Source of the DNA: Farysia itapuensis
Taxonomy: Eukaryota; Basidiomycota; Ustilaginomycetes; Ustilaginales; Ustilaginaceae
Length of the DNA stretch: 64,000 nt
Direction of reading: 5' to 3'
Assembly (NCBI GenBank): GCA_023212645.1
Contig: JALBYC010000003.1
Span: 868,001-932,000 of the forward strand
Shown here: positions 39,482-42,025 of the stretch, in pieces
Layout of the letters: every line of letters starts with the position of its first letter
Position numbering within the stretch: position 1 is the stretch's first letter
Made by a program: the position numbers and the translations under genes
The notes under the pieces: generated by a model
Database searches by the model: none
The model's input: the letters and a program-made list of their open reading frames with translations, nothing else
What the model was told of the DNA's origin: nothing

Positions 39482-42025
39482 CTACTTTGCGACATCAGGG
39501 TTGGCGTAGTAGCAGCTAAAGAGGCAGTCGACGTCTGAATTGGGTGTCGGCTCTGTGCTGTCGGTGGCCGGCGAGGATTGGGCTGCTTCTGGACGCTTGC
39601 TCTGTCGGCGGAGACTTTTGAGGAAGCGACGTAGTTTCCCACTTTTCGGCTGGGTGCGCTCCACCTCTGCTATTTCGGCGGCTGGGGTGGTGGGGGAGGT
39701 TGGTGCAGTCGAGGGGGCAGCTTTGCTAGCTTCAGCTGATTGCGAACTACCGCACGACTCTGAGTTCTGCCTTTCCCCTTGACGACTTGGCGGGAGGAAC
39801 TCTGGTCGATGGGTGGGAAATCGCGGTACGGCTTCCGACGCACACCTGCCGGCCAGACTGTCAAATTCATCCGTTTCCTCCTGGTCGAAATTGGCACTGC
39901 CGCTGCTGCTGCTGCTGCTGCTGCGACGGTGGGTGGCGAAGCGCAGTGGTGTGGTGGTAGGAACGCTTTTTCGGACAAACGCAGTGCATCGCAGTGCAAA
40001 ACGCTGTGCGCGGTGTGGGTGGAAGAAGTCGAGCTGCATCTGGGCTAGTTCGCGCGCTCTGTAGGTGGCAAGGTGTTCGTGTAGCTGCGCGTGTGTTGCG
40101 GCAGGGTTCCCGGCGAGGTTGGCGAGGTAGCGGTGCTTGTTGGCGAGAATAGCGGACCAATGCTGTGTGTTACCGACGGGCGGATCGACAGTGGTGCTGG
40201 GTCGAGTCCATGGAGCCCCGAACTGTACTGCGGCTGAACTCGCGTCGGTCTGTATGATGGAACGGACAACGTCCTTGACACGCTCGACAAGCTGGGAGGA
40301 CGAGCCGTTGTGGGGTACGATCTGGTCGACGAGGCCGATACGGGCGGCGTGGGTGGCGGACATGGGCAGCATCCCGCGCACAAATTCCGACGCAACCTGA
40401 TCACCACAGCGTTGAAACCAGGAGTAGGTATGCCACTCGCTTCCATGCAGGCCAAGTGAGCGATAGTGCGGGTTGAGAACGACATTCTCAGCGCAGAGGA
40501 CAAAGTCGGCGACGGTAGCGAGTGCTAGCCCTCCAGCTGCGGCATTCCCGCGCAACGCCGAGAAGGTAACCACCCCTGCTGGCGCCAGCAACTCCTGCAC
40601 AACATCGTCTATGGCGTGGATGTTGGCCCATCCTTCCGCAGCGCGATCCGCACTGCCTTCGATAACGTTCAGCGCAATGCCGTTACTGAAGTACCCCTCC
40701 CCGCCCATCATCACCACGGCCTTCACCCCGGACTGGGACAGCACCCAACGAATCGCTTCGAGAAGCCACTGACACTGCGTGGTCGAAAAAGCACCGTTGT
40801 AAAACTCGGTGTAGATGTAAGCGATGGGAGGTTCGAGCTCGACCCACACTTGCTGGTAGGTGTGCGGCTGTTTCGCCCACGGATTGATCGGGTCGATGAC
40901 CTCGAGTGGCCATTCCGGCACAGGGTCAGGCACAGAGCTGCTCAGGTTGAGCGCGTATGCAAGGCTGGGTAGGTCGAGCAGGGCCATGACGGCAGGTAGC
41001 TTGGGATGCAGCGACTTGTCTGTTTTCGCCTTGGGACGGCGAAGAAGCCCAATCCAGATGGGGTTATCGGCACCTACGTTGACCAGCACTGCTCCTTGAC
41101 GCGTCGCCATGACGCTACCGATTTTACGGCCACGAGCACGCACATGCTCTGGCAAAGCGCCGCGCTCTACAACAGCGTTGTACACAAACAGCGGTGCATC
41201 CTGTGCAAAAATCGTCGACAGCACGCCCGGTTGGGAATCAGCACAACGCATGCGCTGAAGCACAAAGTCAGCCGAAACACGCGTGCCAACAGCTGCGGCG
41301 GAAGTGGTGGTGGGTGCAAAGTCTCGGTCTGCTGCTTTGAGGAGGGGACGTTTGTGCGTGGGGCCTCCTGCGAAGGGCTGGCTGTGCGAGACGCACTGGT
41401 GGCGATACGCGGGTGTGCATGTCAGCGTGGGGGGCAATCTGGTGCTTGTCGTCGTGTTGGCGGTGGCGTTGTTGATGAGGTGGGCTGATTGGAGGCGTTG
41501 CACAGCTGCATGGACTGCCATCACGGCACAGCGGGTGACGGGTCCGCGGTAGAGCTCGCTCTTGGTCATGGGTGCTGTCTCGCCGGACAGCTCGAACTGG
41601 TCAAAAGCCCATACAGGACCAGCGTCGAAAGTCTCTACAGCCTGAAGCACTGTCACGCCCCAATGAGAGCGAGCAGGGGCAACAACGAGCGGCTTGTCGC
41701 AGCACGGCGATATTAGCGATTTGGTGAAGGTACTTTCGCCGGAATCACCCATCAGGCACCAATCCATCGCCGACGGACCTTCATCTCCCGGCGGACCAGG
41801 ATGCACGATCAGCGTCATACATTCCGTGTAAATCTCCGCCGGGACCCGCTTGGTTAAAAAGGGACACAGCACAAGATCAGGCTGCGCCAGCCTCACTGCT
41901 TCCACCATTACGCCTGGCGACAGTGCATACTCGATCGAAACCTCGTGTCCGCCTCGTTCCGTAAGCTCCAGAGCAAGCCGCTGCGAAAGCGAGTTGTAGG
42001 CCGTACAGATGAACAGAATCTTCAT
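39482..42025 (-). CDS. HypX/HoxX-like protein: formyltransferase-like domain fused to enoyl-CoA-hydratase-like domain
   Basis: 847 residues, intronless. Residues 1-185 form a formyltransferase-like domain with the HypX hallmark LIVHPGPPGDEGPSAMDW (His75) and WGVTVLQAVETFDAGPVW (Asp134). Residues 226-350 hold the HypX linker/FMT-C-like block (RPLLKAADRDF, ADSQPGVLS, IWIGLLRRP). Residues about 400-580 are a crotonase-like domain with EFYNGAFSTTQC, FSNGIALNVIEG, AIDDVVQELL, the oxyanion segment ALRGNAAAGG (490-499), and VVLNPHYRSLGLHGSE. In hydrogen-oxidising bacteria HypX turns N10-formyl-tetrahydrofolate into formyl-CoA and then CO for the [NiFe]-hydrogenase ligand. The fungal copy adds a linker of about 40 residues (185-225) and a Ser-rich, basic tail of about 170 residues. 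It lies among ordinary fungal genes. The function in a hydrogenase-free fungus is unknown; bacterial origin is inference. Confidence 0.88.
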   Translation of the reverse strand: MKILFICTAYNSLSQRLALELTERGGHEVSIEYALSPGVMVEAVRLAQPDLVLCPFLTKRVPAEIYTECMTLIVHPGPPGDEGPSAMDWCLMGDSGESTFTKSLISPCCDKPLVVAPARSHWGVTVLQAVETFDAGPVWAFDQFELSGETAPMTKSELYRGPVTRCAVMAVHAAVQRLQSAHLINNATANTTTSTRLPPTLTCTPAYRHQCVSHSQPFAGGPTHKRPLLKAADRDFAPTTTSAAAVGTRVSADFVLQRMRCADSQPGVLSTIFAQDAPLFVYNAVVERGALPEHVRARGRKIGSVMATRQGAVLVNVGADNPIWIGLLRRPKAKTDKSLHPKLPAVMALLDLPSLAYALNLSSSVPDPVPEWPLEVIDPINPWAKQPHTYQQVWVELEPPIAYIYTEFYNGAFSTTQCQWLLEAIRWVLSQSGVKAVVMMGGEGYFSNGIALNVIEGSADRAAEGWANIHAIDDVVQELLAPAGVVTFSALRGNAAAGGLALATVADFVLCAENVVLNPHYRSLGLHGSEWHTYSWFQRCGDQVASEFVRGMLPMSATHAARIGLVDQIVPHNGSSSQLVERVKDVVRSIIQTDASSAAVQFGAPWTRPSTTVDPPVGNTQHWSAILANKHRYLANLAGNPAATHAQLHEHLATYRARELAQMQLDFFHPHRAQRFALRCTAFVRKSVPTTTPLRFATHRRSSSSSSSGSANFDQEETDEFDSLAGRCASEAVPRFPTHRPEFLPPSRQGERQNSESCGSSQSAEASKAAPSTAPTSPTTPAAEIAEVERTQPKSGKLRRFLKSLRRQSKRPEAAQSSPATDSTEPTPNSDVDCLFSCYYANPDVAK

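Follow-up and report, generated by a model that had tools for sequence, protein, structure and literature searches.

In the literature examined, HypX is treated as the supplier of the CO ligand for [NiFe]-hydrogenases made under oxygen (PMC6802093; PMC12134894), and one of these sources states that the bacterial protein was shown to form formyl-CoA and then CO (PMC12134894). Among the closest known systems to the gene described here is the HypX protein from Aquifex aeolicus (PDB 6j0p and its variants), in which His74, Asp80 and Asp109 were proposed to act in formyl transfer and Tyr416 and Glu426 in decarbonylation, and in which Ser194, Gln195 and Asn306 mattered most for CoA binding (PMC6802093). 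The same source describes Tyr416 as perfectly conserved among the HypX homologues that it lists and reports that HypX function in Ralstonia eutropha requires the equivalents of Tyr416 and Glu426 (PMC6802093). In Cupriavidus necator H16, hypX (pHG1) comes directly after hypE within the hyp operon, and the regulatory hydrogenase genes lie just downstream. Titles and abstract openings of the open-licence literature yielded no treatment of the function of a fungal or other eukaryotic HypX.

A HypX-Type Gene in Farysia itapuensis

The window analyzed here is a stretch of 64,000 nucleotides from the genome of the basidiomycete Farysia itapuensis (assembly GCA_023212645.1, contig JALBYC010000003.1, positions 868,001 to 932,000). 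On its minus strand, which carries all features given below, lies the gene of a HypX/HoxX-type protein of 847 amino acids (39482..42025), a single open frame of 847 codons with an ATG start and no internal stop. A search of the 13.7-Mb assembly (53 contigs) found the HypX-type gene once, as one open frame without stops. The protein begins with a formyl-THF-type formyltransferase domain (residues 1–180; 41486..42025), delimited by the Aquifex HypX match and containing His75, Asp81 and Asp134, within which length comparison and alignment reveal a fungus-specific insert at about residues 93–121 (41663..41749). A linker or Formyl_trans_C-like block (about residues 225–345; 40991..41353), recognized from alignments and from Pfam matches in relatives, bears the CoA-contacting pair Ser264-Gln265 and precedes a crotonase-fold domain (residues 391–600; 40226..40855; ECH_1 and HypX match) with Tyr521 and Glu530. 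The C-terminal helices and the HRR end of the bacterial-type core follow at residues 622–705 (39911..40162), as judged from alignment and the predicted model.

Sequence and fold similarity to HypX covers nearly all of the bacterial protein and takes in the overall HypX fold, with both domains and the joining linker. Among PDB sequences, phmmer matched Aquifex HypX 6j0p with E = 5.3e-87, with good matches spanning residues 1–93, 121–177 and 254–588, and plain ECH proteins matched far more weakly. The start of bacterial HypX aligns with the start of the window protein, the C. necator protein can be aligned from residue 1 to about 700 with identical catalytic residues, and the predicted model superposes on HypX up to residue 705; residues 446–448, in the crotonase domain, form a low-confidence stretch (pLDDT < 50).

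Profile searches gave ECH_1, as expected for HypX, as the sole Pfam call, above cut-off. Neither Formyl_trans_N nor Formyl_trans_C matched the window protein at E up to 1, so that the formyltransferase assignment rests on the direct HypX match. Formyl_trans_C scored above cut-off in the fungal relatives P0004 and P0047 and below it in P0034, and Formyl_trans_N was absent from the Pfam listings of all three and detected in both bacterial HypX proteins examined. A methionyl-tRNA formyltransferase (FMT) or a plain enoyl-CoA hydratase was rejected, the best 25 of 56 NCBIfam families all lying below cut-off. The original prediction of a three-block HypX architecture was thus borne out, with the quoted motifs present, 6j0p and ECH_1 matched, and the formyltransferase recognized through HypX and not through Pfam; sequence and fold group the protein with HypX rather than with unrelated two-domain fusions. 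By homology, predicted fold and kept residues, the window gene is a fungal HypX-type enzyme.

A Conserved Active Site and the Reaction It May Carry

The window protein was compared with two collections. Fungal relatives were the best 120 matches of each search; the 120 found with the window protein were counted as fungal-type by name or similarity, many being unnamed metagenomic proteins and one (P0076) coming from the transcriptome of an unidentified eukaryote. The bacterial set comprised 87 loci, 80 of them among the matches listed in a scan of genome contigs and seven from plasmids, which were probed by tblastn with nine Hyp and hydrogenase proteins of C. necator. A hydrogenase or Hyp gene lies near HypX in 54 of the 87 and none does in 33, a ratio that understates linkage since many of the loci are short.

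Alignments equate Aquifex His74, Asp80 and Asp109 with His75, Asp81 and Asp134, and Tyr416 and Glu426 with Tyr521 and Glu530, so the HypX catalytic residues are retained. All 120 listed fungal-type matches have the His and the two Asp, and 119 have the Tyr and Glu, the remaining one being gapped there, which fits its being a fragment (P0032, 491 aa). A Rhizoctonia query added 66 further listed matches: all show the Tyr/Glu loop pattern, 65 the His/Asp motif and 64 the second Asp motif. As for CoA contacts, Aquifex Gln15, Ser194 and Gln195 correspond to Gln15, Ser264 and Gln265, kept in the listed fungal-type matches where aligned; in the fungal relatives, the counterpart of Arg131 (Arg160) is nearly invariant and that of Asn306 (Asn410) is invariant. 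Aquifex Arg9 is replaced by Ala in the window protein, and Arg542 pairs with Lys686 in a part of the alignment that scores weakly.

Fungi have one residue fewer in the loop from Tyr to Glu than classical hydrogenase-linked HypX. A loop length of 5 occurs in 40/54 linked and 7/33 unlinked bacterial proteins, so that loop length was discarded as an absolute indicator of hydrogenase use. The Asn form GNLxGSE is found in 40/54 linked and 0/33 unlinked proteins, but many of the proteins concerned fall in one clade. Together, the shorter loop and the change of Arg9 to Ala mean that the fungal chemistry could have shifted. In seven hydrogenase-linked HypX proteins, all of Bacteroidota (L040, L042, L048, L049, L064, L073, L075), the position of Tyr416 is taken by Thr (NPHT).

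In the mechanism proposed for the fungal enzyme, the N-terminal domain would use His75, Asp81 and Asp134 to transfer the formyl group of 10-formyl-THF to CoA, the CoA arm would swing over to the crotonase domain, and Tyr521 and Glu530 would split formyl-CoA into CO and CoA, so that 10-formyl-THF would be converted overall, in the cytosol, to THF and CO. The product would have a use other than in a [NiFe]-hydrogenase, as a CO ligand or signal, or the reaction would recycle surplus formyl-THF. The reaction, location and purpose that we infer are probably the right ones: a fungal HypX-type enzyme converting 10-formyl-THF to THF and CO in the cytosol and serving a purpose outside [NiFe]-hydrogenase. 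The cytosolic placement follows from the absence of an N-terminal extension and of a PTS1-like end, and a peroxisomal location was rejected on finding such an end in 0/120 listed fungal-type matches.

The fungal enzyme might instead hydrolyze formyl-CoA to formate, in a net formyl-THF hydrolysis that recycles THF in a PurU-like manner and yields no CO. The crotonase fold does house CoA thioester hydrolases, and the fungal loop is shortened, with NPAY in place of NPHY beside the catalytic Tyr in 74/120 listed matches. However, that short loop also occurs in 14/54 hydrogenase-linked bacterial HypX proteins, and the nearly universal retention of Tyr521 and Glu530, whose equivalents are the residues needed in R. 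eutropha (PMC6802093), makes hydrolysis unlikely.

Genome Content and Possible Sources of Formyl-CoA

The window had been noted to hold no hydrogenase or maturation gene, and this observation extends to the whole 13.7-Mb assembly, of unstated completeness, for three families: six-frame searches that were positive in control genomes gave no match to HypD, to the [NiFe] large subunit or to the HypF C-terminal domain. Of the Hyp proteins this search took in HypD and HypF only, and among fungi it covered the F. itapuensis genome only. A role in hydrogenase maturation would call for a [NiFe]-hydrogenase and a HypC/HypD partner in the same genome, and the three families searched gave no sign of them, in contrast to the setting of hypX in C. 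necator. A formyl-THF synthetase (FTHFS) domain is present, which means that the substrate can be made, and so is a heme oxygenase domain, which means that HypX need not be the sole source of CO.

The genome also encodes three members of the CoA-transferase III family, a family that includes formyl-CoA transferases. Since formyl-CoA is the meeting point of both half-reactions, the enzyme could conceivably draw on formyl-CoA from oxalyl-CoA decarboxylation or 2-hydroxyacyl-CoA cleavage, and either get rid of it as CO or pass its formyl group back to THF. This seems quite improbable, given that the CoA-transferase III members may use other acids and that none of the 120 listed fungal-type matches has a peroxisomal C-terminus. 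Moreover, two reports state that CoA was bound inside bacterial HypX as purified (PMC6802093) and that formyl-CoA is said to remain with the enzyme (PMC12134894), which argues against free exchange.

Spread of the Family Among Fungi

HypX-type proteins related to that of F. itapuensis are widespread. The closest relative among the matches listed is a metagenomic protein with 70% identity by alignment (66% by BLASTP), followed by proteins from smut fungi and related taxa with identities of about 48–56%. Named matches to the window protein come from Ustilago, Sporisorium, Tilletia, Puccinia, Melampsora, Rhizoctonia, Venturia, Zymoseptoria, Fusarium and Beauveria, and those of the second search include Kwoniella, Cryptococcus amylolentus, Cutaneotrichosporon, Vanrija, Colletotrichum and Claviceps. 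The presence of HypX in such a fungus, as first proposed, is confirmed, but its architecture is not special to F. itapuensis: it is, as far as sequence comparison goes, the mark of a large Dikarya family, partly labeled HoxX already. The parts that make bacterial HypX a CO synthase are present and have been retained over much of fungal history, and such retention in many Dikarya speaks for an active enzyme.

A careful 66-row tree, from which redundant and long-branched rows had been thinned out (leaving 16 of 121 fungal-type and 50 of 87 bacterial), answers the earlier suggestion that bacterial HypX and the fungal homologues be placed together: the fungi occupy one side of a branch with support of 100/100 and a stem of 0.92, and lie outside a clade (99/99) of 17 hydrogenase-linked rows that includes C. 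necator and an Aquificaceae row. A quick tree of 106 rows likewise set the fungi on one side of a branch (100) and contained fungus-free clades made up entirely of linked rows, one of 35 rows at 98 and one of 41 at 82. An actinobacterial and Pseudomonas group that appeared as the fungal sister in the quick tree was dropped, and no bacterial sister is claimed for the fungi, because the bacterial backbone is unresolved in the careful tree. A recent bacterial transfer, a contamination or a dead gene without lasting function, for which the sole point is that bacteria are where the family is otherwise known, is hardly credible, given a single intact frame within a long contig, a kept active site and fungal-type relatives (41–70% identity) that form one fully supported branch among the sampled rows; the fungal clade and the intact locus rule out recent transfer and contamination.

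Several fungal entries of the same family are labeled "hydrogenase maturation factor HoxX" in public databases, a role for which no support was found here, which suggests that the label is misleading for the fungal proteins so named. Because family membership is already recorded in databases, the gene itself is not new; its distinguishing points are an insert and a tail peculiar to the conserved fungal branch and, in this genome, the missing hydrogenase genes of the families searched. Three other fungal HypX-type proteins (P0275, P0282, P0294) are named as a C-type cyclin or an RNA polymerase II CTD kinase subunit, perhaps through naming or gene-model errors.

A Fungus-Specific Insert and C-Terminal Tail

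Compared with Aquifex HypX, the fungal protein has an insert in its first domain, one residue fewer between Tyr and Glu, and the Arg9 to Ala change, and it carries an additional long tail, disordered and bearing acidic and Cys-Tyr-Tyr motifs. The insert shows in the spacing from GPSxxDW to WGVT, which is 28–39 residues in 120/120 listed fungal-type matches; in bacterial HypX it is 8 residues in 66/87 and 15 in one, 20 being unparsed. Its similar length in all listed relatives rules out an intron retained in this gene alone or a gene-model artefact.

Just past the end of the bacterial core lies the acidic motif EETDEF (residues 716–721; 39863..39880), in a well-ordered block of the predicted model (mean pLDDT 91). 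A loose pattern for it matched 109/120 listed fungal-type proteins and 0/87 bacterial ones, and a second pattern 126/186 fungal-type proteins as against 1/87 and 0/120 bacterial ones. The extra Ser-rich tail of the original prediction, which may be regulatory as suggested there, does exist, as a disordered Ser/Pro-rich stretch (residues 745–828; 39542..39793; pLDDT < 50), and is followed by a conserved C-terminal motif, FSCYY (residues 836–840; 39506..39520), identified from CYY counts and the fungal alignment. CYY occurs within the last 120 residues of 105/120 listed fungal-type matches and of none of the 87 bacterial proteins; it is not found in the remainder of the fungal-type proteins, and 0.07% of shuffled tails contain it. 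An alignment of 69 rows chosen from 121 fungal-type ones shows no variation at the Cys or at the final Tyr. Strict CYY is weaker in the second fungal set (41/66), because the tails of many tremellomycetes have PCLV, PCLT or PCLF ends instead; a wider pattern, devised after these ends had been seen, matched 169/186 fungal-type proteins and 0.6% of shuffled tails. The motif may dock on the enzyme core, its block having a mean pLDDT of 74 in the model of the window protein but only 50 in that of P0044.

Beyond cytosolic conversion of 10-formyl-THF to CO, a bolder and more tentative possibility is that Dikarya make CO purposely from one-carbon metabolism, independently of heme, as a ligand or signal, with the Cys-Tyr-Tyr tail handing over or gating the CO and hydrogenase maturation being one use only. 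If so, CO synthesis by HypX would be a general biochemical function. Even the narrower case, a fungal branch active without a hydrogenase, would give enzymatic CO synthesis from formyl-THF another physiological use.

Bacterial HypX Away From Hydrogenase Genes

HypX in bacterial genomes where no HypD was found points to the same wider use, if true. Whole-genome searches covered 28 genomes among the 33 unlinked loci, with both control loci positive, and found HypD elsewhere in 19/28, which overturned the idea that an unlinked bacterial HypX denotes a hydrogenase-free genome. None was found in 9/28, namely Pseudomonas (L082, L087), Andreprevotia (L043), Peribacillus (L055), Nocardia (L068, L069) and L053, L066 and L027, some of these genomes being metagenome assemblies of unstated completeness. 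The named genera resemble the fungus in having HypX with no HypD found, but the fungal tail motif occurs in 0/87 bacterial loci.

Neighboring genes were clustered over 40 bacterial loci (the 33 without a nearby hydrogenase gene and seven others), and among the top 30 clusters those with at least three genera were considered. Beyond HypX itself, no cluster occurred in more than eight of the 40 loci, so no functional link is drawn, and gene neighborhood revealed no partner or pathway. The HypX gene of Mycetohabitans endofungorum, from Rhizopus microsporus, is carried by a megaplasmid (L006:8001-9755). Hydrogenase genes are absent for about 8 kb around it, and genes for an acyl carrier protein and for an amino acid-[ACP] ligase lie a few genes away. 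A HypX frame of Chloroflexi (L022:580-3246) has 888 codons, about 300 more than its relatives, and is possibly a fusion.

Two reports on Chromobacterium violaceum also mention a HoxX-like gene or its protein. The gene CV_4142 was lowered, like the hcn operon, by a leaf extract that inhibits quorum sensing (PMC4167859), and the protein appeared in control gels only and not with cyanate (PMC3927592). Both reports are compatible with a use of HypX outside hydrogenase maturation.
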